A DNA stretch of 38,998 bases, from NCBI RefSeq assembly GCF_021272185.1, contig NZ_JAJSEC010000015.1, positions 1 through 38,998 on the forward strand, in the 5' to 3' direction. Each line of letters starts with the position of its first letter. The stretch's first letter is position 1. A model generated the notes under the pieces. That model was not told the origin of the DNA and did no database searches. It saw nothing but the letters and a program-made list of their open reading frames with translations. This DNA is from Roseivivax sp. GX 12232 (GTDB taxonomy: Bacteria > Pseudomonadota > Alphaproteobacteria > Rhodobacterales > Rhodobacteraceae). Made by a program: the position numbers and the translations under genes. Below, one piece after another: positions 772 to 29,595 of this stretch.

Positions 772-1295
772 TCGGGCCTCGCCGCTGTTGCTCCTCGGCT
801 CGATGACCGATCTCTGTCCCGAGCCGTGACAGTGAAATAAGGCAACCTCTGGGCACCCGACAGGCGCGAAAGGGGGTGGGCTCGGACAACCTTAGGTCCG
901 TCGTGGAATGGTTGTCATCGGAGGGTCGGCTATGGCGAAGAGTTGAGGGGCGGGAGTGCCAGGGGGCGCGCCAGCATTGGTGCAGTGCCCGCGTGCTTCC
1001 ACGGACGATGAACTGATGAGCGTTCAGGGCGGGTGGCAGCCTTGGGAGGGTCACGGCGTCTCACATGGGCGTTCGTAATTCTCCTGAAATCAATGACCAA
1101 GCCGCCTCCTGACTTCACATCGACCCCCCGCCTCCTCGATCCCATCCCCACGGAACCCTAGCTCCAACACCCCCCAAACCTCCCCCCAACCCCCGCCCTC
1201 CACGAGAGCTCCTTTCGCGATTTGGCGTGTTCAGTTTCCCGCATTCCGCTCTAAAATGCGAAAGGCAAGGCGCAGCTACGGAGGAGGCAGCCAGG
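772..1295. other. Intergenic region upstream of the amidohydrolase operon
   Basis: No convincing gene is seen. The stretch 1141-1200 is C-rich (repeated CCCCC runs). The last 90 bases hold CTTTCGCG at 1212-1219 and AAAATGCGAAAG at 1253-1264. The latter is identical over 12 bases to the right half of the palindrome at 8912-8930, so this is the likely promoter/operator zone for the gene at 1296. Confidence 0.6.
1253..1264. promoter_or_regulatory. Operator-like half-site AAAATGCGAAAG
   Basis: The 12 bases equal the right half of the perfect palindrome at 8912-8930 upstream of the aconitase X genes, and lie 32 bases upstream of the GTG at 1296. A matching left arm (CTTTCGC) is 41 bases further upstream at 1212-1218. 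Function as a regulator site is inferred from placement only. Confidence 0.35.
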
Positions 1296-10284: not shown

Positions 10285-10763
10285 GCGCACCCGACAAGAC
10301 CGATCAGACCGACATGACCGATCAGACCGACATGGCCGGCGAAACCCTGGTGATCCAGGGCCGCGGGGTCGTCGGCGGCGTGGCCGAGGGCGAGGCCTTC
10401 GTCACCCGCGAGACGGTCTCGGGCTGGGGCGGCATCGACGCGCGCAGCGGCACGATCACCGAGCAGCGCCACGAGAAGCGCGGCGAAAGCTTCGCCGGCA
10501 AGGTGCTGGTCTTTCCCGGCGCCAAGGGCAGCTCGGGCTGGTCGCATTATTTCCACGCCACCCGGCGGCTGGGCACCGCGCCCAAGGCGATGCTCTTCAC
10601 GGTGATGACCACCAAGGTGGCGCTGGGCGCCGTGGTCACGCGGGTGCCCGCGGTGACCGAATTCGACCGCGATCCCTTCGAGGTGATCGAGGACGGCGAC
10701 TGGGTCCGCGTGGACGGGGACAAGGGACGGGTCGAGGTGGTCAAACGGCCACCCCGGCGCTGA
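10281..10763 (+). CDS. Aconitase X small subunit, DUF126
   Basis: A 160-residue protein containing the DUF126 swivelling domain that completes the AcnX active site. IQGRGVVGGVAEGEAFV, SGWGGIDARSGTI, LVFPGAKGSSGWSHYF and FEVIEDGDWVRVDGDKGRVEV are family hallmarks. The ATG overlaps the large-subunit stop (ATGA) and GGAGG lies just before it. The first 18 residues are unusual: two exact in-frame copies of an 18-base unit encode TDQTDM twice ahead of the conserved domain (10299-10334). The domain could also be started at the ATG at 10332, which would omit the repeat. Confidence 0.92.
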   Translation: MSAPDKTDQTDMTDQTDMAGETLVIQGRGVVGGVAEGEAFVTRETVSGWGGIDARSGTITEQRHEKRGESFAGKVLVFPGAKGSSGWSHYFHATRRLGTAPKAMLFTVMTTKVALGAVVTRVPAVTEFDRDPFEVIEDGDWVRVDGDKGRVEVVKRPPRR

Positions 10764-15528: not shown

Positions 15529-16497
15529 TCACGCCCGATACCCGATGTCGATCCGCGCCTTGCCGCCGACGAGGCGCGAGACGCAGGCGCACATCTTGTC
15601 GCCGGCCTGCTTCTCGCTCTCGGAGAAGAACACGTCGCGGTGGTCGAGCGTGCCGCTGGCCTCCAGCACATCGACCGAGCAGAGCCCGCATTCGCCGCGC
15701 TGGCAGTCGTAGATCATCTCGACCCCGGCCTCGAGCAAGGCGCTCAGGAGCGTCTCGTCCTCGGCCACGGTCACCGTGCGCTCGAGGCCCGCGACCTCGA
15801 CCTCGAAGGGCCGCTCGGCATGGGCGCCGCTGTCGCCGAAGACCTCGTAGCGCAGCCGGCTGATCGGCCGGCCCGCCGCCGCCCAGGCGGATTTCGCCGC
15901 CTCGAGCATGGGCAGGGGCCCGCACATGTAAAGCTCGGCCTCCGGGTGCAGCTCGGCGATCAGCGCGTGCAGATCCGGGCGCTCGCCGTCGGCGTCGCTG
16001 TAAAACCGCGCGCGCGGACCCAGAAGCGCCTCGAGCTCGGCGCGATAGGCCATGGCCCCGGGCCGCTCGGCCCCGTAGTGCAGCGCCACATCCGCCCCCC
16101 GCGCGGTCAGCGCGCGGGCCATGCCGAGGATCGGGGTGATCCCGATGCCACCCGCGAGAAGCAGATACTGCGGCGCGCGCCAGGACAGGGCAAAGCGGTT
16201 CTCGGGCAGGGTCACCCGCACGCGGTCGCCCTCGGAGAGGCTCCAGATATAGGCCGAGCCGCCGCGGCTGTTCACCCGCCGCTTGACCGCCACGCCCAGC
16301 GTGCCCTCGGGGCTCGGCACGCAGGTATAGGAGCGCAGCGTCGTACCGCCGCCCAGCGGCACCTCGATCCGCAGGTGGCTGCCGGGGTCGAAGCCCGGCA
16401 GCTCCGCCTCGGGGGCGAAACACACCCGGCGCACGTCCTCGGCGATGTCCTCGGTGCTGACGACCCTTGCGTCGACCCAGTGATCGGCCTGTTTCAT
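15529..16497 (-). CDS. vanB: VanB-like reductase (PDR/VanB family ferredoxin reductase)
   Basis: A 322-residue reductase supplying electrons from NAD(P)H to the neighbouring Rieske oxygenase. Domain order is a flavin domain (RSYTCVPSPEGTLGVAVKR), an NAD domain (LLLAGGIGITPILGMARAL; ELYMCGPLPML) and a C-terminal plant-type [2Fe-2S] ferredoxin (YDCQRGECGLCSVDVL, with a later CACV). The start at 16497 follows GGAG and lies 5 bases after the oxygenase stop; a longer frame upstream overlaps the oxygenase gene and is rejected. VanB is a family-level name: the pair could act on vanillate, syringate or 3-O-methylgallate. Confidence 0.88.
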   Translation of the reverse strand: MKQADHWVDARVVSTEDIAEDVRRVCFAPEAELPGFDPGSHLRIEVPLGGGTTLRSYTCVPSPEGTLGVAVKRRVNSRGGSAYIWSLSEGDRVRVTLPENRFALSWRAPQYLLLAGGIGITPILGMARALTARGADVALHYGAERPGAMAYRAELEALLGPRARFYSDADGERPDLHALIAELHPEAELYMCGPLPMLEAAKSAWAAAGRPISRLRYEVFGDSGAHAERPFEVEVAGLERTVTVAEDETLLSALLEAGVEMIYDCQRGECGLCSVDVLEASGTLDHRDVFFSESEKQAGDKMCACVSRLVGGKARIDIGYRA

Positions 16498-16502
16498 GGC
16501 TC

Positions 16503-17540
16503 TTACTCCGCCGCGATGTCGGCGGTGTCGCGTTCGCGCGCGACCATCCGGTCGATCAGCTTGCGCGCCCACATCGAGCCGCCGTCGATGTTGAGGTTGT
16601 AGAAGACGTGGTCGGGGTTGTCGTCGATGGCCTTCTGCTGGGCTTCGAGGATCTCCTCGTCCTCGCGGAAGATGCCCGAGACACCCTCGACGATGCGCTG
16701 GGTGAGGCTCTGTTCCTCGGTGCGGAATGAGCGCGCGAAGCCCCAGAAGTAATGGCAGGTCTTGTCGGTCTCGGGGGTGATCGTGTTCAGGACCATGCCG
16801 CGCACGCCCTTGGACAGATCGCCCTCGGGCACGCCGGTGCCGGTCGGCGCCACGCCCACGTCGATGGCGATGGTCGAGGGCGCCTCGAAGTTGATCACCT
16901 GCCAGCGGTCCACATGCTCGGCCTGGCCCAGGTTCTCGGCCCAGAAGGGCGGGGCGGTGATGTCCTCCATGATCCGGGTCACCGTGGCGGTGGTGTCGGT
17001 ATGGGTGACGCTGAAGGGCGCCTCGGCCACCGCGCGGTTGCCAATCGAGGAGCCGTGCACGAAGGTCTCATGGGTCAGGTCCATGAGGTTGTCGACCACC
17101 AGCCGATAGTCGCATTTGGCGTGGATCACCCGCCCGTCCGAGACCCACTCGGGGTCGTCGTGCCAATGCAGATCGGGCACCAGCGCGGGATCGGCCAGGG
17201 CCGGATCGCCGGGCCAGACCCAGATGAAGCGGTGTTTCTCGACCACCGGGTAGCTGGTCACGCAGGCCGAAGGATTGATGGTGTCCTGGGACGGCATGTA
17301 TACACAGCGGCCCGTGTCATCAAATTCCAGCCCGTGGTAGGCGCAGATCACATTGTCGCCGTGCAGCTCCCCCTTGGAGAGCGGCAGCAGCCGGTGCCAG
17401 CAGGCGTCCGCCAGGGCCGCGGCCTCACCATTTTCTTTTCTGTAAAGGACAATCGGCTTGTTGCAGATGCGGCGGGAAAACAGCTTCCGGCCGATCTCAT
17501 TGTCGGTGGCGGCAACGTACCAGGCATTCAGAGGGAACAT
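16503..17540 (-). CDS. vanA: VanA-like Rieske oxygenase (aromatic O-demethylase), alpha subunit
   Basis: A 345-residue Rieske non-haem iron oxygenase of the vanillate O-demethylase type, which oxidises a methoxyl group to release formaldehyde and a phenol. The Rieske motif is CWH (C47, H49) with CAYHG (C66, H69). The mononuclear iron site is visible in VVDNLMDLTHETFVHGSSIG (D150 bridging, H157, H162 plus a downstream Asp). Length matches VanA. An 18-bp palindrome (17572-17589) lies 32 bases upstream of the ATG, the same core found at the other promoters of this locus. The gene heads a two-gene operon with the reductase. The exact substrate among vanillate, syringate and 3-O-methylgallate is open. 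Confidence 0.9.
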   Translation of the reverse strand: MFPLNAWYVAATDNEIGRKLFSRRICNKPIVLYRKENGEAAALADACWHRLLPLSKGELHGDNVICAYHGLEFDDTGRCVYMPSQDTINPSACVTSYPVVEKHRFIWVWPGDPALADPALVPDLHWHDDPEWVSDGRVIHAKCDYRLVVDNLMDLTHETFVHGSSIGNRAVAEAPFSVTHTDTTATVTRIMEDITAPPFWAENLGQAEHVDRWQVINFEAPSTIAIDVGVAPTGTGVPEGDLSKGVRGMVLNTITPETDKTCHYFWGFARSFRTEEQSLTQRIVEGVSGIFREDEEILEAQQKAIDDNPDHVFYNLNIDGGSMWARKLIDRMVARERDTADIAAE

Positions 17541-17696: not shown

Positions 17697-18014
17697 TCAC
17701 GTGGTCAGCGGTTCGATCCGCTCGGCGCGGAAGCCGTCGGCCAGGCGGGTCAGCGTGTAGCCGGTTACCAGCCCGCCGGTGAAGAAAGGGTCGCCCTCGG
17801 CGAAGGCGCGGGCATCCTCGGGGCTCTCGGCCTCGAGGATGCCGAAGTTGCCGATCCCGGTGCCCGCCTCGTTCCAGAGCGCCGAACCGGTCAGCACCTT
17901 GGCGCATCCCGCGCCGCCCGAGGCGACCCAGGCGCGGTGCTCGGGGCGCAGCGCGTCGCGGCGGGCGGGCACATCGGCGCCCTCGGCGTGGGTGCAGACC
18001 ATCAGGAAATACAT
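17697..18014 (-). CDS. YciI-like (DUF/YCII-related) protein
   Basis: A 105-residue ferredoxin-fold protein. MYFLMVCTHAEGADVPARRDALRPEHRAW, LTGSALWN, GNFGILEAESPEDARAFAEGDPF and YTLTRLADGF match the YciI/muconolactone-isomerase-like pattern with the conserved His and the D-P-F stretch. Start 18014 is chosen because its ATG overlaps the ligB stop (TGATG). As the last gene of the ring-cleavage operon it may act on a ring-cleavage product as an isomerase or lactone-processing enzyme, but family members are mostly uncharacterised. Downstream, 17664-17682 can form a 6-bp hairpin without a T-run. Confidence 0.8.
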   Translation of the reverse strand: MYFLMVCTHAEGADVPARRDALRPEHRAWVASGGAGCAKVLTGSALWNEAGTGIGNFGILEAESPEDARAFAEGDPFFTGGLVTGYTLTRLADGFRAERIEPLTT

Positions 18015-18856
18015 CAGCCCGCGTTCTCCAGCAGCACCATGCCCGCGCCGGTCATCGAGGCCGGGGCGAAGTAATGTTTGTGCAGGGTCTTCACCTCGGC
18101 ATCCATGCAGCCGCGCATCACCAGCCACATGATCAGCTCGGCTCCCTCGGAGCCGAACTCCTCGATGTACTCCTCGCGTGTCATGGCGCGGTAGCGTGCC
18201 GGATCGGCGCCGATCTTGGCGACCCATTCGCGGTCGGCCTCGGGGTTGATGAAGCCCGCCCGCGCGCCCTGGAGCTGGTGCGACAGCCCGCCGGTGCCCA
18301 GGACCACGACCTTTTCGTCGGTCGGATAGCTCTCGATCGCCTGGCGCAGAAGCTCGCCCAGCTCCCACATGCGCTGCGGGGTGGGGATCGGATACTGGAT
18401 GGTGTTCACCAGGATCGGCACGACCTTGACCGGCCAGGCCTCGGGGCGGCCGAAGACCAGCTCCATCGGCACCTGCATACCGTGATCCACGTCCAGCTCG
18501 CGGCAGAGCATCGGGTCGAAATGGCCCTCGACCATGCGGTCGGCGAGATGCCAGGCAAACTCGCTCGCGCCCTCGAAGGTCGGGATCGGGCGCGGGCCCC
18601 AGCCCTCGTCGGCGGGGCGGTATTCATCCGCCACCCCCAGCGCCAGGGTCGGCACCCGGTCGAGGAAGAAGGAATTGCCGTGGTCGTTGAAGATCACCAC
18701 GGCGATGTCGGGCTTCTTCTCGGCGATCCACTCCTGCGCCGGGGTGTAGCCGTCGAAGAAGGGTTTCCACTCTTCGCTCTCGCGCAGGCCCTTGTCGATG
18801 GCCATCGCGATGGAGGGCACATGGCTTGTTCCCAAGCCGCCAATCAGTTCAGCCAT
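18014..18856 (-). CDS. ligB: Extradiol ring-cleavage dioxygenase, LigB-type catalytic subunit
   Basis: A 280-residue type II extradiol dioxygenase very like the beta subunit of protocatechuate 4,5-dioxygenase. Iron ligands are visible: H12 (GTSHVPS), H59 (FNDHG) and a Glu in GSEGAEL (237/240). H193 in GTGGLSHQLQG is the catalytic base position and H125 lies in DVDHG. PADEGWGPRP also matches LigB. It is encoded separately from LigA, unlike the fused GalA/DesB enzymes. With no LigC or LigI nearby but GalD, GalB and GalC present, gallate or 3-O-methylgallate is a likelier substrate than protocatechuate. Its ATG lies within the end of the upstream LigA frame (8-base overlap), so the two are coupled. 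Confidence 0.92.
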   Translation of the reverse strand: MAELIGGLGTSHVPSIAMAIDKGLRESEEWKPFFDGYTPAQEWIAEKKPDIAVVIFNDHGNSFFLDRVPTLALGVADEYRPADEGWGPRPIPTFEGASEFAWHLADRMVEGHFDPMLCRELDVDHGMQVPMELVFGRPEAWPVKVVPILVNTIQYPIPTPQRMWELGELLRQAIESYPTDEKVVVLGTGGLSHQLQGARAGFINPEADREWVAKIGADPARYRAMTREEYIEEFGSEGAELIMWLVMRGCMDAEVKTLHKHYFAPASMTGAGMVLLENAG

Positions 18857-19925
18857 TGGTCACCTTCCCCAGCCGTGTGTCGAGAAACTCCTGCAGTTCC
18901 ATGCCCGCCTGCGCGGCGCCGATCTCGCGGATCGGGGTCGGGTCGACGGCGGAAATCTTCAGGATATAGAAGAGGTTGCCCCCAAGGCGCACCATCTCGG
19001 CCCAGTCCCGGGCAAGAACGGCGGCGCGCTGCTCGGGGCTCAGGACGAAGCGGTCGAGATAGGCCCCTTCGTCGGCGAGGAAGGCCGCGCGGCCCTCGGG
19101 CGTGGAAAGCCCCATGGCCATCTTGTTGAGCTCGTATCCGGCATTGGCGCGCCTGCGGTCGAACAGCGGCGTGTCAGGAATGCGGTCGCCTTGGGACATG
19201 GCGGGCTCCTTTCCGGTGGCGGCTTGCGGCAGCCCGGCGGCCCAATCGGCGATCACGCCGGCGGTGGCCCGGGGCTGTTCGACCGGGGCGAAATGCCCGG
19301 CCTCCTCGATGATCCGCAGCTCGGCCTGCGGGCAGAGTGCGGCGATTTCCTCGTGCTGGGCGATGGGGCTCCATTGGTCCTGCCGCCCGACGACCAGAAG
19401 CATCGGCCCGGCGAAATCGCCGATTGTCGCGGCGGCATCGGGGCGGGCGAGCAGGGCGCGCATCTGGCGGGCGTGGATCTCGGGTGTCATGCGGCGCACC
19501 ATGGCCTGCAGGCCCGAGAGCACCTCGGGGTCGGGCGCCCGCCCCTCGGCCATCATGCCGGGCAGCCAGCGTTCGGCCAGCGCCTCCATGCCCTCGCGGG
19601 CGGAGAGCGCGATCATCGCCTCGCGCTTCTCGGCCTCGCCGGGGCGGGCGGCATGGATGCCGGTGTTCAGAAGCGCCAGCCCCGCGATGCGGTCGGGCGC
19701 GATGCGGGCCATCTCCATGGCGACGCGGCCGCCCATGGAATGCCCGACGGGCACCAGCGGGCCCTCATGCGCGGCCAGGAGGTCGCGGGCCATCTCGGGG
19801 ATGTCACCTTGGGTGGTCACATCGGCCAGGGCGGGTCTCTGCCCGCCCGCCTCGAGCGCGGCCCGCGTCGCGGTCCAGACATGACCGTCGGAGATCAGGC
19901 CCGGGATCAGGAGAAATGTGGTCAC
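18849..19925 (-). CDS. Alpha/beta-hydrolase fused to LigA (dioxygenase alpha subunit)
   Basis: One uninterrupted 358-codon frame. Residues 1-240 are an alpha/beta-hydrolase with triad candidates S63 (VGHSMGG), D183 (VVGRQDQWSP) and H211 (EAGHFAPVEQP). From residue 243 the sequence is LigA: RRANAGYELNKMAM, DEGAYLDRFVLSPEQRAAVLARDW and RLGGNLFYILK. At the junction a strong AAAGGAG site sits 7 bases before an internal ATG (19199), so free LigA (116 aa, 18849-19199) may also be made. Cleavage of 3-O-methylgallate can give a methyl ester (CHMOD) that must be hydrolysed, a reaction suited to this hydrolase. A frameshift or lost stop between two formerly separate genes is the alternative. It overlaps ligB by 8 bases. 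Confidence 0.85.
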   Translation of the reverse strand: MTTFLLIPGLISDGHVWTATRAALEAGGQRPALADVTTQGDIPEMARDLLAAHEGPLVPVGHSMGGRVAMEMARIAPDRIAGLALLNTGIHAARPGEAEKREAMIALSAREGMEALAERWLPGMMAEGRAPDPEVLSGLQAMVRRMTPEIHARQMRALLARPDAAATIGDFAGPMLLVVGRQDQWSPIAQHEEIAALCPQAELRIIEEAGHFAPVEQPRATAGVIADWAAGLPQAATGKEPAMSQGDRIPDTPLFDRRRANAGYELNKMAMGLSTPEGRAAFLADEGAYLDRFVLSPEQRAAVLARDWAEMVRLGGNLFYILKISAVDPTPIREIGAAQAGMELQEFLDTRLGKVTNG

Positions 19926-19934
19926 CTCGGCCTC

Positions 19935-21239
19935 CTAGTTGAACATCGTGTTGGGCAGGAAGAGCGAGATCTGCGGGAAGGCGATCAGCACGCCCAGGAC
20001 CGCGATCATCGCCAGCCAGAAGGGCAGGACGCCGCGGAAGATCTGGCCCAGCGGCACCGCCTTGGCGACAGATTTCACGATAAAGACGTTGATCCCCACC
20101 GGGGGCGAGATCAGCCCCATCTCCAGCGTCAGCACCACCAGCACGCCGAACCAGATCGGGTCGATGCCCAGTTCGACCACCACCGGGAAGAAGATCGGCA
20201 GGGTGAGCACCAGCATGGCGAAGCCTTCGAGGAAGCAGCCCAGCACCAGGTAGACAAGCAGGATGAACAGGAGCGTGCCCAGCACGCTGAGGTCCAGCGC
20301 GTCCAGGAAGTTGCCCACCGTCTCGGTGATATGGGTCAGCGCGAAGAAGGGGTTCAGCAGATGCGCCGCGATCAGGATCAGCATGACCGTGGCGGTGGTC
20401 ACCACCGAGCCGCGCACCGATTGCACCAGCTCGCCCAGCGTCAGCCGGCGGGTGGCGAGGCCGTAGATGATCGCGAGGCCCGCGCCGACGCCGGCGGCCT
20501 CCTCGGGCGAGAAGAAGCCGCGGTAGATGCCGCCGATGGTCACCAGAACCAAGACCAGGATCGGCAGGGCACCGGCCACCGCGCGGCGCTTTTCGACGAA
20601 GCTGGTGCTCGGGCCCTTGGGGCCGAACTCGGGGCGCAGCAGGCAAAGCGCGAAGACCGTCAGCACGAAGACCAGAAGCAGCAGGAGCCCCGGCAGGACA
20701 CCGGCCATGAAGAGCCGTCCGATGCTCTGCTCGGTCAGGATCGCGTAGATCACGAAGCCGGTGGAGGGCGGGATCAGGATGCCCAGCGTGCCCCCGGCCG
20801 CGACGCTGCCGGTCGAGAGGCGCGGGTCGTAGTTGAAGCGCTCCATCTCCTGCAGGCTCACCTTGCCCATGGTCAGCGCCGAGGCCACCGAGGAGCCCGA
20901 GAGCGCCGCGAAGCCGCCGCAGCCGATGATCGTCGCCGAGGCGAGCCCGCCGCGCACATGGCCGATCAGCGCATAGGCGGCGTCATAGAGCTGCCGGCTC
21001 ATGCCGGTGGCCGAGGCGACATTTCCCATCAGGATGAAGAGCGGGATCACCACCAGTTCGGGCTTGGCGGCGAGCGTGAAGGTCTCCGAGGCCAGGAGCC
21101 CGCGCGCCACGGTCCAGCCGTCGATGATCCAGAGCCCGAGGAAGCCCACGAGGAACATCGCGAAGGCCACGGGGATGCGCAGAAGCAGCAGCGCCAGAAG
21201 CGCGGCGATGCCGAGGATGCCGATCAAGCCGCTGCTCAT
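19935..21239 (-). CDS. TRAP transporter large permease (DctM family)
   Basis: A 434-residue multi-pass permease. IPVAFAMFLVGFLGL, VVIPLFILMGNVASATG, AALSGSSVASALTMGKVSLQEM, GTLGILIPPSTGFVIYA and LGCFLEGFAMLVLTLPIFFP are the DctM signature. The ATG at 21239 overlaps the dctQ stop (ATGA). It lies between the LigM-like gene and the ring-cleavage genes on one strand with short gaps, so the importer is probably co-transcribed with the pathway it feeds; a methoxylated aromatic acid is the expected ligand. Confidence 0.94.
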   Translation of the reverse strand: MSSGLIGILGIAALLALLLLRIPVAFAMFLVGFLGLWIIDGWTVARGLLASETFTLAAKPELVVIPLFILMGNVASATGMSRQLYDAAYALIGHVRGGLASATIIGCGGFAALSGSSVASALTMGKVSLQEMERFNYDPRLSTGSVAAGGTLGILIPPSTGFVIYAILTEQSIGRLFMAGVLPGLLLLLVFVLTVFALCLLRPEFGPKGPSTSFVEKRRAVAGALPILVLVLVTIGGIYRGFFSPEEAAGVGAGLAIIYGLATRRLTLGELVQSVRGSVVTTATVMLILIAAHLLNPFFALTHITETVGNFLDALDLSVLGTLLFILLVYLVLGCFLEGFAMLVLTLPIFFPVVVELGIDPIWFGVLVVLTLEMGLISPPVGINVFIVKSVAKAVPLGQIFRGVLPFWLAMIAVLGVLIAFPQISLFLPNTMFN

Positions 21240-21736
21240 GGGGTCTCCTTGCGGATGTCTTTGCGGGTCAGCGTCAGCTCGAGCGCCCGGACCGCCAGCC
21301 CCAGCGCGGCGACCAGCGACATGAGCGCGAGGCCCCACTGGAACCAGGCGCGCGGCAGGCGCAGGAGGTTGGTGGACATGTTCAGCATCTGGCTGAGCCG
21401 GGCCGCCTCGATCACGGTCAGGGCGATCATCACGAAGATGACGCAGCCGAGGACCGCGGTGAAAATGTCGATGGCGCGGTTGAGCGCCGGGGAGTAGCGC
21501 GGCTCGAGAAGGTCGACGGCGATATGCCCGCCCTCGCGGTCGCAAAGCGCCATGCCCCCGAAGACCAGGAGCGCCATGCCCATGGTGATCAGGTCCTGGC
21601 TGCCGAAGAGCGGCGCGCCGAAGCTCCGGCCGACGACATCCACCAGGATGACGCCGACCAGGGCCAGGAGGCAGAGCCCCCCGACCAGGGCGGACAGGCC
21701 GATGAGCCCGTCCGCGATTTTGCGCAGAAGCGTCAC
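21236..21736 (-). CDS. TRAP transporter small permease (DctQ family)
   Basis: A 166-residue, four-helix membrane protein. VILVDVVGRSFGAPLFGSQDL follows helix 1 and DREGGHIAVDLLEPRYSP precedes helix 3, both typical of DctQ. The GTG start begins directly after the TAA of dctP, so translation is likely to be reinitiated by the same ribosomes. This differs from the other two TRAP operons here, where a stable hairpin separates P from Q. Confidence 0.92.
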   Translation of the reverse strand: MTLLRKIADGLIGLSALVGGLCLLALVGVILVDVVGRSFGAPLFGSQDLITMGMALLVFGGMALCDREGGHIAVDLLEPRYSPALNRAIDIFTAVLGCVIFVMIALTVIEAARLSQMLNMSTNLLRLPRAWFQWGLALMSLVAALGLAVRALELTLTRKDIRKETP

Positions 21737-22717
21737 TTACTCGGCCCTCATCGCCGCCAGCGCCTCGGCGCCGCCGACACCCTCGACGTAGCCGTTGACC
21801 ACCTCGGCCACGGCCTCGGAGAAGGCGGTGATCTCGTCCTCGGAGAGGTCGATCACGGTGTTGTCGCCGCTGGCGCGGGCCTTGCCCATGGCGTCGTCGG
21901 CCTGGGCGTTCCAGGCGTCCTCGGCGGATTTCGACAGCGCCATGCCGGCCATCTCGTCAAGCGCCGCGCGGGCCTCGTCGCTAAGCCCGTCATAGGCGCC
22001 CTGGTTCATCACCGTGTAGAAGGACAGCCGCCCGAGGTTGGCGCCCAGGGTGTAGCTGTTGGCCACCTCGTCGAGTTTGAAGTCGTTGAGGGTCGAGGCC
22101 CCGGTGATCACCCCGTCGATCAGCCCGGTCTGCAGCGCGTTGTAGACCTGGTTGATGGGCATCTGCACGGGCGTGCCGCCCAGGGCTTCCAGCACCTGCG
22201 CCGAGGTCGCGCCCGCGACGCGGATCTTCAGCCCCGAGACGTCCGCGGGCGTGCGGATGTCGTGGTCCTTCATGATGAAGATGTTCGGCTCCGATGTCCA
22301 AAGCGCCAGCGGCACCGTGCCCGGGAACTCGTCGGAGAGATGCGCGTCGAAGGCCGCCCAGAGCGCCTCGTAGCCGGGCTTCTCCAGCGGGATCGCGTCG
22401 GGCAGCTCGACGATCATCGTGGTCTCGAACTGCGAGGAGGTGTAGCCGGGCAGGCCCCAGACCATGTCGGCCACGCCCTGCACGGCGCGCACGTATTGCT
22501 CGACCGGGCCCGCGCCCAGCTCGCCGCCGTGGTAGCCGCGCACGCTCCATTCGCTGCCGGTGGCATCGCTGAGCGTGGCGTTCAGCGGCTCGATGACGCT
22601 GGGGTTGATGGTGTGGAAGGGCGGCGTGAAGTTGGCGAACTTCAGCTCTTCGGCCTGGGCGGCGCCGGCCAGAAGGCAGGCGGTCGCGGCGAGGCCGGCA
22701 AGGCGTCTCTGGATCAT
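21737..22717 (-). CDS. TRAP transporter substrate-binding protein (DctP family)
   Basis: A 326-residue periplasmic protein with a Sec signal peptide of about 22 residues (LAATACLLAGAAQAEE). The ligand-binding core is recognisable: TPADVSGLKIRVAGATSAQVLEALGGTPVQMPINQVYNALQTGLIDGVITG, with the conserved Arg in KIRV expected to bind a carboxylate. It follows the LigM-like gene by 85 bases that contain two GC-rich hairpins. Context makes an aromatic acid such as syringate or vanillate the likely ligand; no sequence feature proves it. Confidence 0.92.
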   Translation of the reverse strand: MIQRRLAGLAATACLLAGAAQAEELKFANFTPPFHTINPSVIEPLNATLSDATGSEWSVRGYHGGELGAGPVEQYVRAVQGVADMVWGLPGYTSSQFETTMIVELPDAIPLEKPGYEALWAAFDAHLSDEFPGTVPLALWTSEPNIFIMKDHDIRTPADVSGLKIRVAGATSAQVLEALGGTPVQMPINQVYNALQTGLIDGVITGASTLNDFKLDEVANSYTLGANLGRLSFYTVMNQGAYDGLSDEARAALDEMAGMALSKSAEDAWNAQADDAMGKARASGDNTVIDLSEDEITAFSEAVAEVVNGYVEGVGGAEALAAMRAE

Positions 22718-22802: not shown

Positions 22803-24221
22803 TCAGGCGCTGACGGTCGACTTGGTGCGCCAGCTGTCGGCGTAGTTCTCGCGCGCCTCCTTGGCGTAGGGGGTCGGCGCGACCCGGACCCGGATCTCGG
22901 CCTGCCGGTGGGTCTCGGTCGAGGTCTTCTCGGTCGGCTCGGGCTCGCCCCATTTCAGCGTCAGCACGTCGCCCACCTCGACCGAGGGCGCGACCACGCC
23001 GAGGCTCAGGAGGCAGCGTTCGTTGAAGCTGTAGCCGTTGAACATCGACATCCCGACCATCTTGCCGCGCTCGTCGCAGACCATGTCGGCGCTGGAGGAC
23101 GCGTAGTTCGGCTGCGGGAAGTCGATCCACTTGTAGGGCGTGCCTTCCTCGAAGGAGGAGGCGATGACCTTCAGCACGTCCTCGCGGTTCCACTCAAAGG
23201 TGACCTTCTTGCGGTTCGAGGGCTTGCCCTTGAGCGCGGCCAGGGCCTCCTTGCCGATGAAGTCGTCCTTCTTCCAGCCGATGTAGAAGTCGTAGCCCAG
23301 CTCGAAGGGATTGACGTAATAGTCCTCGATGTTGTCCGAGACGAAGGAGCCGCCGATCGCGCCGGCCGCCTCGTAGCTGTCGGCGCCAAGCCAGTCGCGA
23401 TAGGCCGCCAGCATCCCGTCGCCGGTGTAGATCCCCGGCAGGGGCGAGGGAATCCAGCCCGATTCCAGCGTGTTGGTGGAATAGGCGCGGCTGCCGCACT
23501 GCACGAGGTTCACGCCCGCGTCGCGTGCCGCCTGCAGGATGGTGGACTGGATGTAGTCCTTGTCCTTGTAGGGGCCCCAGACCTCGAGGCCGGGCGCGCC
23601 GGACATGCCGTGGCGCAGGGCCTGCACGCGCTTGGAGCCGATGTTGATCCAGTCGACGTGGAAGAACTTGATCTCCGGCACCGGGCCGCCGTTCATCTTC
23701 TCGAAGATCTTCGGCGCGTCGGGGCCCTGGATCTGGAAGCGGTAATGCTCGCGCACCACCCGCTCGCCTTCGGGCCGCGAGGGCGAGCGCGGATCGTAGC
23801 GCAGCCGCACGTTCCACTGCCCGTAGGCGGCGGCGAACATCAGCCAGTTCGAGGTCGGCGTGCGGCCCACGAGGATGTATTTGTCCTCGCGCTCGCGGAA
23901 GATGATGTGGTCGCCGATGACATGGCCGTTCGGCGTGACCGGCACGAAGTGCTTGGCGCGGTTCAGGTCGAAATTGGCGAAGGAGTTGATGCCGTGGTGC
24001 GACAGGAAGGCCGTGGCATCCGGTCCCTCGACGATCAGCTCGTCCATGTGGTGGGTCTGGTCGAAGAGCACCGCGCTCTTGCGCCAGGCCTCCTGTTCGG
24101 TGCGCCAGTTCGAGAACTCCGGCGCGACGACGGGATAGACATACATCCCGATCTTCGAGTTGCGCAGCAGGTTCACCGGATTGCCGGCGGCGGCAATGGC
24201 AGCAGCTAGGCTGTTGGTCAC
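22803..24221 (-). CDS. ligM: Tetrahydrofolate-dependent aromatic O-demethylase (LigM-like, GcvT fold)
   Basis: A 472-residue protein that transfers the methyl group of a methoxylated aromatic acid (vanillate or 3-O-methylgallate in LigM) to tetrahydrofolate. Long identical stretches to LigM as I recall it include YVYPVVAPEFSNWRTEQ, LFDQTHHM, RHGMSGAPGLE and NTLESGWIPSPLP. Y247 (SRAYSTNT) coincides with the catalytic Tyr247 of LigM, with R120 and H57/H58 near its R122 and H60. The GTG at 24221 is chosen because GGGAGG lies 7 bases upstream and the length then equals LigM; an ATG 15 bases earlier precedes the ribosome site. It heads a seven-gene minus-strand operon running to 17697 under a TGTATACA site. 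Syringate (DesA-like) activity is possible. Confidence 0.92.
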   Translation of the reverse strand: MTNSLAAAIAAAGNPVNLLRNSKIGMYVYPVVAPEFSNWRTEQEAWRKSAVLFDQTHHMDELIVEGPDATAFLSHHGINSFANFDLNRAKHFVPVTPNGHVIGDHIIFREREDKYILVGRTPTSNWLMFAAAYGQWNVRLRYDPRSPSRPEGERVVREHYRFQIQGPDAPKIFEKMNGGPVPEIKFFHVDWINIGSKRVQALRHGMSGAPGLEVWGPYKDKDYIQSTILQAARDAGVNLVQCGSRAYSTNTLESGWIPSPLPGIYTGDGMLAAYRDWLGADSYEAAGAIGGSFVSDNIEDYYVNPFELGYDFYIGWKKDDFIGKEALAALKGKPSNRKKVTFEWNREDVLKVIASSFEEGTPYKWIDFPQPNYASSSADMVCDERGKMVGMSMFNGYSFNERCLLSLGVVAPSVEVGDVLTLKWGEPEPTEKTSTETHRQAEIRVRVAPTPYAKEARENYADSWRTKSTVSA

Positions 24222-24242
24222 GTCACTTCCTCCCAATCGTGT

Positions 24243-24327: not shown

Positions 24328-25047
24328 TCACTTCGAGACCAGCGCGAGCGAGGCCGCGCCCCCCTCGGAGGACTGCCGCTCAGTGACCAGCCGATGGGCG
24401 TTGCGGCGGGCGGTGCGGGCGTGTTCGCGGGCCAGGAACTCGGCGCGGGATCCTTCGCGCGCGCCGATGGCGCCGAGGATCGCGCGGTGCTGCTCCTGCG
24501 CCATGGTCAGTGTCTTGCGGAACCGGGTCACCTGGCTCTCGTCGTCGAGGAAGGCCGAGGGCGAGGCAAAGGGCAGGGCGGTCACCCGCTCGATCTCGTG
24601 GCGGATCACCCGGCTGCCAGCCATCCGCGCCATGAGATCGTGAAACTTTGAATTTTCTTTTGCATACAGGTCCATATCGATCTCCTCGGCCTCGAGGATG
24701 CGGTCGATTTCGCGCAGGATGACCTCGCCTTCCTTCTGATGTTCCGGGGTGATCCCGCGCTCTGCCGCGAGCCGTGCGGCGGTGCCCTCCAGGGTGCCCC
24801 TGAGCTCGATCGTATCGAGCACGTCGCGCATCTCGAAACGGCGGGCCTTGAAGCCGCCGCCGGCGATGCGTTCCAGCAGCCCTTCCTCGGCCAGTTTCGA
24901 CAGCGCCGCGCGGACCGGCGTGCGCGAGATTTCGAGGTCGTTCGCCAGCGCCACCTCGTAGAGGCGTTCGCCGCCCGCGATGCTGCCGTTCAGGACCCGC
25001 TGACGGAGCGTGATGAGGGCGCGTTCGGTATGGGTTTTGGAGGACAT
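24328..25047 (-). CDS. GntR-family regulator, FadR/FCD (VanR-like) type
   Basis: A 239-residue repressor-type protein. The winged helix-turn-helix is visible in GERLYEVALANDLEISRTPVRAALSKLAEEGLLER, and an all-helical FCD effector domain follows with metal-site histidines in ENSKFHDLM, QEQHRAILGAI and FLAREHARTARRNAH. Start 25047 (MSSKTH) gives the family length; an ATG at 25113 lies inside the operator and is unlikely. It is divergent from the galB operon and upstream of ligM, and the three promoter regions of the locus share a TGTATACA palindrome, including its own. It probably represses the locus until an aromatic acid or ring-cleavage intermediate binds. Confidence 0.92.
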   Translation of the reverse strand: MSSKTHTERALITLRQRVLNGSIAGGERLYEVALANDLEISRTPVRAALSKLAEEGLLERIAGGGFKARRFEMRDVLDTIELRGTLEGTAARLAAERGITPEHQKEGEVILREIDRILEAEEIDMDLYAKENSKFHDLMARMAGSRVIRHEIERVTALPFASPSAFLDDESQVTRFRKTLTMAQEQHRAILGAIGAREGSRAEFLAREHARTARRNAHRLVTERQSSEGGAASLALVSK

Positions 25048-25102
25048 TCTGCTGCCTGTGATGAAACACTTTGTGACGAAGAGGCTAGCATTTTCCCGTC
25101 GC

Positions 25103-25114
25103 CATGTATACATG
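25103..25114. promoter_or_regulatory. GntR-type operator between gntR and galB
   Basis: Perfect 12-bp palindrome CATGTATACATG, 56 bases upstream of the gntR start and 103 bases upstream of the galB start. It could control both divergent units and provide autoregulation. Confidence 0.75.
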
Positions 25115-25216: not shown

Positions 25217-25942
25217 ATGACGAAGACGGCTCTGGTGATCTCGGCCCATGCGGCCGATTTCGTGTGGCGCTGCGGCGGCGCCATCGCGCTGCATGCCGCG
25301 CAGGGGATCGAGGTGACGGTGGCCTGCCTCAGCTTCGGCGAGCGCGGCGAAAGCGCCCGGCTCTGGAAGGAAGGCAAGAGCCTCGAGGAGGTGAAGGCCT
25401 TGCGCAAAAGCGAGGCCGAGGCCGCCGCCGAGGCGCTGGGCGCGCATCGCCTGGTCTGCTTTGACCTCGGCGACTACCCGCTCGAGCTGGACCGCGCCGA
25501 CAAGATGCGGCTCGTCGACCTGATCCGCGAGGTGCAGCCCGGCTTCATGCTGAGCCACTCGCGTTACGACCCGTATAATACGGACCACAGCTACGCCACG
25601 CAGCTCGCGCTCGAGACCCGGATGATCGCCCAGGCCTGGGGCCACAATCCCGGCGAACAGGTGCTCGGCGCGCCGCAGCTCTACCTCTTCGAGCCGCATC
25701 AGACCGAACAGATGGGCTGGAAGCCCGACACTTTCCTCGACATCACCCCGGTCTGGGAGCGCAAGGAGGCCGCCATGCGCTGCATGAACGGCCAGCAGCA
25801 CCTCTGGGAGTATTACACCCGCGTCGCCCAGCAGCGCGCCAACCACTTCAAGCGCAACTCCGGCGGCCAGTCCGGCGGCCGCGACTGCCGCTACGCCGAG
25901 GGCTTCGAGTCGGTCTTCCCGCGCACGGTGGACGCGCTGTGA
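25217..25942 (+). CDS. galB: 4-oxalomesaconate hydratase, GalB type (PIG-L family)
   Basis: A 241-residue PIG-L/LmbE-fold metalloenzyme. The zinc motif reads SAHAADFVWR (H11, D14) with the third ligand in YNTDHSYA (H124). The HAADFVWR variant and the context match GalB of Pseudomonas, in which this fold hydrates 4-oxalomesaconate to 4-carboxy-4-hydroxy-2-oxoadipate rather than deacetylating a sugar. A GGGAGGAG site precedes the ATG. It leads a plus-strand operon with VOC, MetF-like, aldolase and tautomerase genes. The unrelated LigJ performs the same step in sphingomonads. Confidence 0.85.
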   Translation: MTKTALVISAHAADFVWRCGGAIALHAAQGIEVTVACLSFGERGESARLWKEGKSLEEVKALRKSEAEAAAEALGAHRLVCFDLGDYPLELDRADKMRLVDLIREVQPGFMLSHSRYDPYNTDHSYATQLALETRMIAQAWGHNPGEQVLGAPQLYLFEPHQTEQMGWKPDTFLDITPVWERKEAAMRCMNGQQHLWEYYTRVAQQRANHFKRNSGGQSGGRDCRYAEGFESVFPRTVDAL

Positions 25943-26919
25943 CCGGGGGCGGGGCCACACCGCCGCCCGGCTGGGGCGAAATCGCCCACCTCGGCCATGT
26001 CGAGCTTCTGACCAACCGCTTCGAGGAGAGCCTCGACTTCTTCACCCGGGTCTACGGGCTCAAGGTCTCGCTTCAGGAGCCGGACTGCGCCTACCTGCGC
26101 GCCTGGGACGACTACGAGTTCCATTCCCTGAAGCTCACACGCCACCACACCACCGGCGTCGGCCATATCGGCTACCGCGCCGCCAGCCCCGAGGCGCTGG
26201 AGGCCCGGGCCGAGGCCATCGCCGCTGCGGGCCACAAGGTCCTGGGCTGGGACGAGGGCGACGCCGGCCATGGCCGGGCCTTCCGCTTCGAGGATCCCTT
26301 CGGCCATGTCTTCGAGATCTACTTCGACACCCGCCGCGCCGAGCCCGCCCCCGAGGACCGCCCGGCGCTGAAGAACATGGCCTCGCGCTTTCACGCGCAG
26401 GGGGCCTGCCCGCGCCGGATCGACCACCTGAACCTCCTGGCCTCGGACGTCTCGGTCTTCCGCAACTTCATGCAGGACTGCCTCGGCGCCCGCGTGACCG
26501 AGATGATCCAGCTCGACAACGGGCGGATCGGCGGTTGCTGGTTCACCATCAACAACAAGACCTACGACCTGGCCTGCACCGAAGAGCAGGGCGGCGGGAC
26601 CGCGCGGCTGCACCATGTCACCTATGCCACCGACCAGCGCGAGGACATCCTGCGCGCCGCCGACATCTTCCTGGAGAACGGCGTCCACATCGAGACCGGC
26701 CCGCACAAGCACGCGATCCAGGGGACCTTCTTCCTCTACGCCTGGGAGCCCGCCGGAAACCGGGTCGAACTGGCCAATGCCGGGGCGCGGCTGATCCTCG
26801 CCCCGGATCACGCCCCCGTCGTCTGGACCGAGGCCGAGCGCCGCAAGGGCCAGGCCTGGGGGCTGAAGACCATCGAGACCTTCCACACCCACGGCACCCC
26901 GCCCGTGGAGCAGAGATAG
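25939..26919 (+). CDS. Type I extradiol dioxygenase-like (VOC family) protein
   Basis: A 326-residue two-module VOC protein, like catechol 2,3-dioxygenases. Iron ligands fit: an N-terminal-module His in AHLGHVELLT (17/20), then in the C-terminal module His in RLHHVTYATD and Glu in GNRVELANAG. RRIDHLNLLASDV opens the second module. The GTG start overlaps the galB stop. The presence of both a type I and a type II (LigAB) ring-cleavage enzyme in one locus is notable; this one may open a different ring (a catechol or methoxycatechol) or act on a side product. A non-dioxygenase VOC role cannot be excluded. Confidence 0.82.
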   Translation: MTGGGATPPPGWGEIAHLGHVELLTNRFEESLDFFTRVYGLKVSLQEPDCAYLRAWDDYEFHSLKLTRHHTTGVGHIGYRAASPEALEARAEAIAAAGHKVLGWDEGDAGHGRAFRFEDPFGHVFEIYFDTRRAEPAPEDRPALKNMASRFHAQGACPRRIDHLNLLASDVSVFRNFMQDCLGARVTEMIQLDNGRIGGCWFTINNKTYDLACTEEQGGGTARLHHVTYATDQREDILRAADIFLENGVHIETGPHKHAIQGTFFLYAWEPAGNRVELANAGARLILAPDHAPVVWTEAERRKGQAWGLKTIETFHTHGTPPVEQR

Positions 26920-26930
26920 GAGCGCCCGCC

Positions 26931-27851
26931 ATGACCGTTCTGCCGTTTTCCAACCCGAAAGGCCCCGCGCGGGCCTCGCACGAGGCGCGCGAACTGCTCT
27001 CGGGCTTCTCGATCGAGGTCATGCCCCGCACCGCGGCGAAGATCCCGGATTTCCGCAAGATCCTGCCGCCCGGCACCCGGGTCTATATCGCCCAGATCGA
27101 GGGCACGCCCTTCGACGACATGCTTGCGACCGCCCGGCGCCTGCAGGAGGAAGGCTTCACCGCCATGCCGCATCTGCCCGCCCGGCAGATCCGCGACCGC
27201 GCCACGCTGGAGACCTGGCTGAGGCGCTACCGCGAGGAGGCGGGTGTGCGCGAGGCGCTGGTGATCGCGGGCGGCGGGGCGCGGCCCGTCGGCGCCTATG
27301 ACAGCTCGCTTCAGTTGCTGGAGACCGGGCTTTTCGACGCGTTGGGCTTCACCCGGTTGCATGTGGCGGGCCACCCCGAGGGCAGCCGCGACATCGACCC
27401 CGACGGCTCGGACCGCGAGGTCATGGCGGCCCTGCGCTGGAAGGCGGAGTTTGCCGCGCGGACGGACGCGAAGATTGGGCTTGTCACCCAGTTCGCCTTC
27501 GATCCCGACCCGGTGCTGTCCTGGGCGCGGAGGCTGGCCGAAGAGGGCGTGGCGCTGCCGGTGCATGTGGGCCTTGCCGGGCCGACCAAGCTGCACACGC
27601 TGATCAAGTTCGCCGTGGCCTGCGGGGTGGGCCCCTCGCTCGGCGTCTTGCAGAAGCGCGCGCGCGACCTCACCCGGCTGGCGACCCCCTTCACCCCCGA
27701 CGCCATGCTCGCGGCGCTTTCCGAGGCGACGGCGGCGCGGGATGCGGGGCATATCGCGGGCGTGCATCTCTTCCCCCTCGGCGGGCTCAAGGCCACCGCG
27801 GAATATGCCACGGACACGCTGGCGCAGGCCCCCGCAAGAGCGCGGGGCTGA
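26931..27851 (+). CDS. Methylenetetrahydrofolate reductase-like protein (MetF family)
   Basis: A 306-residue TIM-barrel protein. VYIAQIEGTPFDDMLATARRLQEEGFTAMPHLPARQI is the MetF-type active-site and folate region, and VIAGGGARPVGAYDSSLQLL and VAGHPEGSRD are flavin/folate contacts. Sequence and length fit the divergent MetF-like branch rather than housekeeping MetF. TAGGAG precedes the ATG at 26931; an open frame extends 400 bases upstream only as an alternate frame of the VOC gene. Its place beside a LigM-type demethylase indicates that it converts the methyl-THF produced there back to methylene-THF, the role assigned to MetF next to LigM in Sphingobium. Confidence 0.85.
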   Translation: MTVLPFSNPKGPARASHEARELLSGFSIEVMPRTAAKIPDFRKILPPGTRVYIAQIEGTPFDDMLATARRLQEEGFTAMPHLPARQIRDRATLETWLRRYREEAGVREALVIAGGGARPVGAYDSSLQLLETGLFDALGFTRLHVAGHPEGSRDIDPDGSDREVMAALRWKAEFAARTDAKIGLVTQFAFDPDPVLSWARRLAEEGVALPVHVGLAGPTKLHTLIKFAVACGVGPSLGVLQKRARDLTRLATPFTPDAMLAALSEATAARDAGHIAGVHLFPLGGLKATAEYATDTLAQAPARARG

Positions 27852-27854
27852 GCC

Positions 27855-28526
27855 ATGGGAGTTGTTGTCCAGAACATCGACCGCGCCGATCCATCGGTGA
27901 TCGAAGGTCTCGGCCGCGCCGGCGTCGCCACGGTGCACGAGGCGCAGGGCCGCAAGGGCTGCCTCGCCTCCCACATGCGGCCGATCTACACCGGGGCGCG
28001 CATCGCCGGCTCGGCGGTGACCATCAGCGCGCCGCCCGGTGACAACTGGATGCTGCATGTCGCCATCGAACAGCTCCGCGAGGGTGACATCCTGGTGCTC
28101 GCCCCGACCTCGCCCTGCGACGCGGGGTATTTCGGCGACCTGCTCGCGACCTCGGCCCGGGCGCGTGGCGCGCTGGGCCTGGTGATCGAGGCCGGGGTGC
28201 GCGACATCCGCGAGTTGACCGAGATGGGCTTCCCGGTCTGGTCCCGCGCGATCAGCGCCCAGGGCACCGTGAAGGAGACGCTGGGCTCGGTGAACGTGCC
28301 CGTGGTCTGCGGCGGCCAGGCCATCGCGCCGGGCGACGTGATCGTCGCCGATGACGACGGGGTCTGCGTGGTCTCCCGCGCCGAGGCATCCGAGGTGCTG
28401 GCCCGCGCCGAGGCCCGCGAGGCCGCCGAGGAGGAGAAGCGCCGCCGCCTCGCGGCGGGCGAGCTGGGCCTCGACATCTACGACATGCGCGGGCGGCTGG
28501 CCGAGAAGGGCCTGCGCTATGTCTGA
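27855..28526 (+). CDS. galC: 4-carboxy-4-hydroxy-2-oxoadipate aldolase (LigK/GalC, RraA-like)
   Basis: A 223-residue RraA-fold class II aldolase splitting 4-carboxy-4-hydroxy-2-oxoadipate into pyruvate and oxaloacetate, usually with oxaloacetate decarboxylase activity. Family features are [41 protein letters not shown] (R116, D117: substrate and metal positions), [21 protein letters not shown] and the C-terminal LGLDIYDMR seen in proteobacterial CHA aldolases. It starts 3 bases after the MetF-like stop and overlaps galD by 8 bases, so the last three genes are tightly coupled. Confidence 0.9.
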
Positions 28527-29595
28527 CGGTCCGGGCGGTCTGCCCTGCCTCTGGATGCGCGGCGGCACCTCCAAGGCCGCGGTCTTCCTGGCGCGCGATC
28601 TGCCCGAGGATCCCGCGGCGCGCGACGCGCTGCTTCTGCGGGTCATGGGCAGCCCCGATCCACGCCAGATCGACGGGCTCGGCGGAGGCGATCCGCTGAC
28701 CTCCAAGGTGGCGGTGCTGGCGCCCTCGACGCGGCCCGGCGCGGATGTCGACTACCTTTTCCTGCAGGTCTTTCCCGACCGCGCGCTGGTCTCGGACGCC
28801 CAGGGCTGCGGCAACATCCTGGCCGCCGTGGGCCCCGCCGCCATCGAGCTGGGGCTGGTCGCCGCCGGAGAAGGCGAGACCCGGGTGGCGATCCACATGG
28901 TCAACACCGGCGAAGAGGCCCAGGCCGTGGTCGCCACACCCGGTGGCCGGGTCGGCTACGACGGCACCGCGCGCATCGACGGGGTGCCGGGCGCCCATGC
29001 GGCGGTGGCGCTGTCCTTCGGCACGCTGGCGGGCGCGCTCTGCGGGGCGCTTCTGCCGAGCGGCCGGGCCGTCGACCGGATCGAGGGCGTGGACTGCACG
29101 CTGATCGACAACGGCATGCCCTGCGTGCTCATGGCCGCCGAGGACTTCGGCCTGACCGGGCGCGAGAGCCCCGAGACGCTCGAGGGCGACGCCGCGCTCA
29201 AGGCCCGGATCGAGGCGATCCGCCTGGCCGCCGGGCCGATGATGGGGCTGGGGAATGTCTCGGAGAAAAGCGTGCCGAAGATGACGCTGGTCTCCGCACC
29301 GGAAGGCGATGCGCTGATCGCCACGCGCTCTTTCATCCCGCACCGGGTGCACCGTTCGCTGGGCGTCTTCGCGGCGGTCAGCGTGGCGACCGGGGCGCTG
29401 CTCCCCGAGGGCCCGGCCCGCCGCGTGGCCCGCCCGACGGGTCAGGAGGCGGGGGCCTATGTCGTGGAGCATCCCGCCGGCGCGCTGACGGTGCTTCTGT
29501 CGCAGGACGACAGGGGGGCCGTGACCCGCAGCGGCTTCCTGCGCACCGCGCGAAAGCTGATGGCGGGCGAGGTCTTCCCGGCGCCTGAGGGGTGA
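28519..29595 (+). CDS. galD: 4-oxalomesaconate tautomerase, GalD-type (PrpF family)
   Basis: A 358-residue PrpF-fold isomerase (two diaminopimelate-epimerase-like domains). Motifs: [13 protein letters not shown] at the N terminus, [34 protein letters not shown] (C97 as catalytic thiol position), [13 protein letters not shown] in the second domain, and the late [20 protein letters not shown]. GalD interconverts keto and enol forms of 4-oxalomesaconate before hydration by GalB. Together with GalB and GalC it completes the lower gallate pathway; a generic PrpF aconitate isomerase is less likely in this context. No clear terminator follows. Confidence 0.9.

Follow-up and report, generated by a model that had tools for sequence, protein, structure and literature searches.

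Ring opening of 3-O-methylgallate yields CHMOD, a methyl ester that cyclises to 2-pyrone-4,6-dicarboxylate (PDC) (PMC8091115, PMC6888825) and has a half-life of about 70 min (PMC12314914). In Pseudomonas sp. NGC7, a LigAB-type 3-O-methylgallate dioxygenase (MgaAB) is found with an alpha/beta hydrolase for CHMOD (MgaC) and a SnoaL-like isomerase (MgaD). Loss of MgaC results in PDC at 95% of syringate, and no LigI-like gene was found in this strain (PMC12314914). Here we analyze a 38,998-nt stretch of DNA from Roseivivax sp. GX 12232 (contig NZ_JAJSEC010000015.1, hereafter the window), in which an alpha/beta hydrolase and LigA, the alpha subunit of a LigAB-type dioxygenase, are encoded as one polypeptide. 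We consider it probable that the hydrolase part cuts CHMOD while tethered to the LigA of a dioxygenase that opens 3-O-methylgallate, before PDC forms.

The locus resembles that of NGC7 in its Van-type demethylase, GntR regulator and GalBCD and in having no LigI detected, and it differs in that the Mga enzymes are separate proteins (PMC12314914). MgaA is GalA-like, with 47% to the GalA C-terminus and 21% to LigA of Sphingobium SYK-6 (PMC12314914), whereas LigA models score the window LigA higher than the gallate dioxygenase model does. The window hydrolase is likened to MgaC by published description and gene context. LigAB of SYK-6 (PDB 1B4U) shares the alpha and beta subunits and two LigB histidines with the window, but there the LigA has Phe103 in place of Ile and, unlike the window LigA, is not joined to a hydrolase. 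LigA lies within a fused polypeptide in the single-chain gallate dioxygenases GalA/DesB (LigB-LigA) and in the alpha/beta-fused protocatechuate 4,5-dioxygenase (NF009912); its partner in these is LigB, which in the window is a separate gene (18856-18014), and not a later pathway enzyme. PcaDC, also named PcaL, likewise fuses an alpha/beta hydrolase (3-oxoadipate enol-lactonase) to a neighbouring step of aromatic catabolism (4-carboxymuconolactone decarboxylase). Its fusion partner and reaction differ, and the PcaDC/PcaL model NF051488 gives the window protein 94 bits, under the cut-off of 390. Each domain and the pathway are already known; their joining is new. No description of a hydrolase-LigA fusion was found in the literature searched, which left most subscription journals outside its coverage, and the NGC7 paper contains "fusion" 0 times and "fused" three times, in the instances shown for reporter or tag constructs (PMC12314914).

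A hydrolase and LigA in one reading frame

A reading of the DNA alone (hereafter the sequence-only reading) had described one open frame encoding a hydrolase with a candidate triad (S63, D183, H211) followed by LigA from residue 243, and each of these elements was borne out. The frame runs on the minus strand from a GTG start at 19925 to a stop codon at 18851-18849, with 358 codons and no internal stop. On the encoded protein, Pfam places Abhydrolase_1 at residues 42-216 (56.4 bits, above cut-off) and LigA (PF07746) at residues 266-351 (96.9 bits against a cut-off of 25.3). The triad residues lie in the motifs GHSMGG (Ser63), GRQDQWSP (Asp183) and EAGHF (His211) and are unchanged in all 27 aligned hydrolase rows, taken from the fetched loci; an alpha/beta hydrolase fold with Ser-Asp-His is one of the features by which a CHMOD methylesterase with the function of MgaC/DesC would be recognized. 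The LigA domain is complete from Met243 (ATG 19199-19197), the same point at which the free LigA of relatives begins. Together with the adjoining LigB (202.8 bits against a Pfam cut-off of 26.3), it has the composition of a LigAB class III extradiol dioxygenase. His12 and His59 of LigB, which we take to be iron-ligand histidines alongside a Glu as third ligand, are unchanged in 16/16 aligned rows, a count that covers the two histidines only, with the Glu left out and one row truncated.

An AlphaFold model of the fusion, built from an 11-row alignment, reached a mean predicted local distance difference test (pLDDT) score of 83.6 and a predicted template modelling score of 0.64. The hydrolase is mostly above pLDDT 80, residues 235-245 fall below 50, and the helical LigA part is mostly at 67-92. 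This low-scoring stretch between two well-modelled parts suggests two domains joined by a flexible link, with their mutual position not fixed. Among the best 50 Foldseek matches listed, nearly all are alpha/beta hydrolases by name or title, among them a Thermogutta esterase, a feruloyl esterase, BioH and an enol-lactonase; none of the 50 is a LigA chain.

Fused and separate pairs in other genomes

Within the genus, a search of nine Roseivivax genomes returned a full-length fusion match only in the genome of the window itself. With that genome counted each time, matches above threshold were found in 11 of 394 genomes of the family (E 1e-45), 6 of 385 of the class (1e-45) and 7 of 398 of the phylum (1e-40), and five further loci came from named genomes. 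We compared the junctions in 20 larger stretches, of which L078 was included for a lone LigA. The hydrolase directly precedes ligA in 13 loci, window included. In 11 of these the two genes are separate and either overlap by as much as 8 bases (6/11 pairs) or lie up to 51 bases apart, and in two they are fused: the window and L061, from genome G234. The closest relatives, a Roseinatronobacter (L034; hydrolase 68%, LigA 88%) and a Rhodobacteraceae metagenome-assembled genome (L033; 67%, 85%), are both unfused, with a stop codon that lies upstream of the LigA ATG or overlaps it. In L034 this is a TGA five codons upstream of the ATG, where the window has GGA (Gly238, 19214-19212), and the window junction has two extra codons between the last Trp and the LigA ATG. 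The fusion probably originated when the stop separating two adjacent genes was lost, with the old LigA ribosome site kept and some free LigA probably still made.

The sequence-only reading had also proposed a strong internal start, with AAAGGAG seven bases before the ATG at 19199. The motif is present, at a spacing of six bases rather than seven. Its pairing with the anti-Shine-Dalgarno sequence (-8.2 kcal/mol) is the best among 24 internal in-frame ATG/GTG/TTG codons of the fused open reading frame (ORF), but 19 of 230 internal in-frame ATGs in 25 other long ORFs of the window pair equally well. Because of these controls, Shine-Dalgarno strength alone is within chance, and we rejected it as proof of an internal start by itself. 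The position of the ATG is the stronger argument, and an internal LigA start is plausible. AerR of purple bacteria is an example of one gene that yields two isoforms with different N-termini (PMC6199135); in the window, dual products are only possible.

These junction data also bear on a simpler account, a chance read-through of little functional weight, in which a recent stop loss produced a tolerated fused form, functional LigA comes from the internal site, and hydrolase and LigA behave just as two unlinked enzymes would. The unfused closest relatives, the TGA of L034 opposite the GGA of the window, the good internal start site retained and the occurrence of the gene in one of nine genomes of the genus all agree with it. 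Against it stands the G234 fusion, which has no LigA start before the LigA domain, both domains above their Pfam cut-offs, the triad kept and a fused form that seems to be the only LigA of its genome. We regard read-through as unlikely, though the strongest of the alternatives considered here and below; these overlap, and their odds do not add up to one.

The second fusion is a single frame of 340 codons in which the hydrolase Ser, Asp and His are kept. Its junction is shorter than that of the window and has no ATG at the LigA start. In-frame starts at codons 181-270 are GTG 185 in the hydrolase (-8.5 kcal/mol) and GTG 222 near the hydrolase end (-3.0), followed inside LigA by ATG 254 (-4.7) and ATG 256 (-2.2). 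As G234 has one LigA match, its alpha subunit seems to exist in fused form only, and free LigA is thus not a needed part of the design. In a tree built from hydrolase, LigA and LigB (627 columns, 13 rows), the fused rows of the window and L061 fall in separate, well-supported clades, and a single shared origin was rejected (log-likelihood 242.83 lower, approximately unbiased test p = 2.07e-5); the fusion therefore arose twice. Decay of the fused hydrolases was considered and set aside: both keep the triad and every other residue that does not vary across the 27 rows. The 11 unfused rows have tip branches of 0.07-0.34, a range that includes the window (0.28), and L061 has the longest of all 13 (0.41). 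Third codon positions of the hydrolase show about twice as many differences as first or second positions.

The sequence-only reading had named a stop before the internal ATG in close relatives as grounds for doubting the fusion, as a sequencing error or an isolated mutation. Such stops exist in L034 and L033, yet the finding stands, because G234 carries an independent in-frame fusion that lacks an internal LigA start. Being differently built, the G234 fusion counts against both explanations, and the joining of hydrolase and LigA looks like a real, recurrent fusion seen at two stages. The search for the architecture and for a junction without a stop, which the same reading had suggested, returned this second case while also finding 11 of the 13 pairs separate; the interpretation as a whole keeps its two intact domains and fitting CHMOD chemistry but has to accommodate the stop in the closest relatives. 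A sequencing or assembly error joining two ordinary genes would require one base change, giving a stop where L034 has one. The genome is, however, 99.69% complete with 0.56% contamination, an error at one of three bases is estimated to be far rarer than the 2/13 fused pairs seen, a single indel would shift the hydrolase stop into LigA, and the G234 fusion cannot arise from one base. We consider an artefact highly improbable and set it aside as the principal explanation in view of that second fusion.

Long LigA-containing frames are few in the genomes surveyed. PF07746 was found in 43 of 394 family genomes and in 22 of 275 class genomes. The family set has six frames of at least 330 codons, of which two are hydrolase fusions and four LigB-LigA chains. 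The class set has eight: one is the window fusion, L123 contributes two LigB-LigA chains and L124 a third, three more are L125-L127, and the last is L070, where the hydrolase terminates in a different frame. L125-L127 are class III dioxygenase chains of 364-429 codons, in which a LigB-like part is followed by a tail with weak likeness to LigA, and come from two genomes of another family in the class. No third hydrolase-LigA fusion was seen among frames of at least 330 codons in these 394 family and 275 class genomes. The family survey spans 393 genera, and with nearly one genome per genus, near relatives carrying the same fusion may be missed.

The probable substrate and the role of the tether

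The gene company of the hydrolase makes a methoxyaromatic ester its likeliest substrate. Among the 13 pair loci, ligM is present in 8, gntR in 9, yciI in 10 and TRAP (tripartite ATP-independent periplasmic) transporter genes in 6, counted in stretches of unequal length. In five loci without ligAB in the stretch (L059, L062, L064, L067, L069), the hydrolase is still accompanied by ligM. On plasmid pPDL2 of Sphingobium fuliginis (L110), a hydrolase 46% identical to that of the window stands beside an NTF2-family gene, LigB and LigA, the gene content of mgaC, D, B and A in NGC7 (PMC12314914). This mgaC-D-B-A-like block, whose LigB is gallate-dioxygenase-like, lies near the organophosphate hydrolase gene opdA. 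On a TomTYG72 plasmid, the hydrolase comes before a gcvT-type gene, and metF, folD, a Van-type pair and an annotated PDC hydrolase gene lie nearby; in Roseomonas it comes after ligA and ligB.

The window genome (4.12 Mb) has one LigA match and no LigI match at E 1e-3. As a control, the same LigI query was run on 120 family genomes and matched in 34 at E 1e-10, with identities of 53-61% in 11 and lower values in the others. A LigC orthologue was not found in the window genome either, the best pieces being 28-35% identical; of the 12 genomes searched with this query, 8 (its own and seven others) have orthologues at 76-100%. Weak LigC matches only were obtained in G234, G358 and G364, in which the single LigA match adjoins the hydrolase. 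With no LigI match and no LigC orthologue, usual protocatechuate 4,5-cleavage is unlikely and PDC is probably a dead end. The CHMOD chemistry invoked by the sequence-only reading fits the cluster, these absences and the published MgaC precedent (PMC12314914).

The LigAB could instead be a protocatechuate 4,5-dioxygenase next to an unrelated hydrolase, as its nearest solved structure by sequence is SYK-6 LigAB. We find this very unlikely: the protocatechuate 4,5-dioxygenase equivalog TIGR02792 gives 81.5 bits, under its cut-off of 108.6, which together with the LigI and LigC results leaves the route unsupported in this genome, and Phe103 is replaced. Residue 90 of the window LigA, at the place of SYK-6 Phe103, is Ile, and the position is Ile, Val or Met in 13/13 hydrolase-LigA pairs. 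Phe103 mutants of SYK-6 LigAB can have raised activity on gallate and 3-O-methylgallate, some beating DesZ (PMC10094722). The replacement is compatible with 3-O-methylgallate use but not diagnostic; as a unique mark of hydrolase-linked LigA it was discarded, since 21 of 35 other LigA frames carry Val or Met.

We propose that the gene product is a bifunctional alpha subunit of a class III ring-opening dioxygenase. Its LigA part would pair with LigB from the next gene and open 3-O-methylgallate, probably gallate too, giving CHMOD from the former. In SYK-6 LigAB, the active site is at the alpha-beta interface, and LigA carried an N-terminal His-tag when co-purified with LigB (PMC10094722). The N-terminal hydrolase, on its short flexible linker, would sit on the subunit bordering the active site; CHMOD would leave that site beside the esterase, and the tether may favour its capture. 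The hydrolase would then cut CHMOD to 4-carboxy-2-hydroxymuconate and methanol before it cyclises, with less lost to PDC, which the window genome seemingly cannot use, and GalD, GalB and GalC would complete the route. The retained AAAGGAG and ATG may add free LigA. A broader proposal is possible but tentative: a recurrent two-enzyme machine, evolved at least twice, in which a dioxygenase hands an unstable methyl ester to a tethered esterase, and in which the internal start of the window mixes hydrolase-bearing and bare alpha subunits in each complex.

Several observations weigh against a CHMOD-cutting tethered hydrolase. The fusion is not needed, as 11/13 adjacent pairs are separate, and the very fusion of the window is carried by one genome only, where the altered stop could in principle be a base error. 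LigM could convert 3-O-methylgallate to gallate, and opening the gallate ring requires no esterase. LigAB2, the second LigAB of Novosphingobium, prefers gallate (PMC8091115), MgaC and DesC are only 13% alike (PMC12314914), and Ile is absent among the named Phe103 mutants in the available parts of the SYK-6 study (PMC10094722). Ile, Val or Met at this position is not special, as the 35 other LigA frames (one per locus, from the family and class PF07746 surveys) have Val/Met in 21 and Phe in 14. A 38% hydrolase homologue in Sinorhizobium stands beside a 3-hydroxyacyl-CoA dehydrogenase gene, with no ring-cleavage genes seen in that neighbourhood, and homologues in L068 and L075 are without any cluster gene found in the stretch.

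The Sinorhizobium homologue, lying outside aromatic genes, would also suit a hydrolase that serves another ester or lactone of aromatic catabolism and a tether of general use, as would family-level matches to many esterases and 3-oxoadipate enol-lactonase and a catechol 2,3-dioxygenase-like gene within the same cluster. The repeated association with LigM and LigAB and the MgaC precedent (PMC12314914) speak for CHMOD instead, and we judge a different substrate improbable.

If CHMOD is indeed the substrate, the fusion would be a case of natural oxygenase-to-hydrolase channelling in lignin (syringyl) catabolism. PDC, the competing fate of the intermediate, is itself sought after as a building block for polymers. 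The two natural fusions, with and without an internal LigA start, and the 11 unfused pairs form a comparison set for the effect of the tether on the CHMOD/PDC split.

The surrounding gene cluster

By established pathway knowledge, the cluster (Table 1) is a set for converting a methoxylated aromatic acid into pyruvate and oxaloacetate.

Table 1. Coordinates of the fused gene, its parts and neighbouring genes in the window.
Feature	Position	Strand	Basis or remark
Fused ORF, alpha/beta hydrolase - linker - LigA, 358 aa	18849..19925	minus	GTG start at 19925 behind AGGAGG
Alpha/beta hydrolase domain, residues 1-233	19227..19925	minus	Pfam, triad, AlphaFold domain, Foldseek esterase matches
Catalytic codons	Ser63 19739-19737, Asp183 19379-19377, His211 19295-19293	minus	
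Linker, about residues 234-256	19158..19226	minus	pLDDT <50 at 235-245
AAAGGAG, Shine-Dalgarno-like	19206..19212	minus	6 bases before internal ATG 19199-19197
LigA domain / possible free LigA, Met243 to stop	18849..19199	minus	Pfam, sequence match to SYK-6 LigA
ligB, catalytic beta subunit	18014..18856	minus	Pfam; start overlaps 3' end of fusion by 8 bases
YciI-like gene	17697..18017	minus	Pfam; behind ligB
VanA-like Rieske oxygenase (VanA_C)	16503..17540	minus	Above Pfam cut-off
VanB-like ferredoxin reductase	15529..16572	minus	Profile search
TRAP transporter DctM, DctQ, DctP	19935..22717	minus	Pfam; synteny
LigM, tetrahydrofolate-dependent vanillate/3-O-methylgallate O-demethylase	22803..24236	minus	NF047885, 643.1 bits (cut-off 580)
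GntR-family regulator	24328..25113	minus	Pfam
PIG-L family protein, GalB-like	25217..25942	plus	Family match
Catechol 2,3-dioxygenase-like protein	25939-26919	plus	289.8 bits (cut-off 320.2)
GalC/LigK, 4-carboxy-4-hydroxy-2-oxoadipate aldolase	27855..28526	plus	Above cut-off
GalD, 4-oxalomesaconate tautomerase	28504..29595	plus	NF033377, above cut-off

LigM falls under the cut-off of the DesA model (540.9 bits against 800). The PIG-L protein, from the family to which we take GalB to belong, reached the cut-off of no NCBIfam model. The isomerase of NGC7 is SnoaL-like, and the YciI-like protein of the window may isomerize the ring-cleavage product in its place. A YciI-like gene lies behind ligB in 10 of the 13 pair loci, window counted, and directly behind the hydrolase in L059 and L062, two of the stretches without ligAB. 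The catechol 2,3-dioxygenase-like gene sits among the gal genes; relatives at 77-82% lie near the hydrolase in L065 and L071, and a gene so annotated comes after the hydrolase in Roseomonas. The in-frame piece at 27030-27848 had no Pfam or NCBIfam family match at the limits used.

Elsewhere in the window, two adjoining amidohydrolases (1227-3466, plus strand) have as best PDB matches 6m2i_A and 6m1w_B, different chains of one entry group, which suggests a two-subunit amidohydrolase. A LigI/LigJ identity found no support, as their nearest solved structures are other amidohydrolases and no LigI/LigJ NCBIfam model matched at E 1e-5. Aconitase X and its swivel domain are encoded by two adjoining genes at 9001-10763 (plus strand), flanked by a dehydratase/oxidoreductase pair and a second TRAP transporter.

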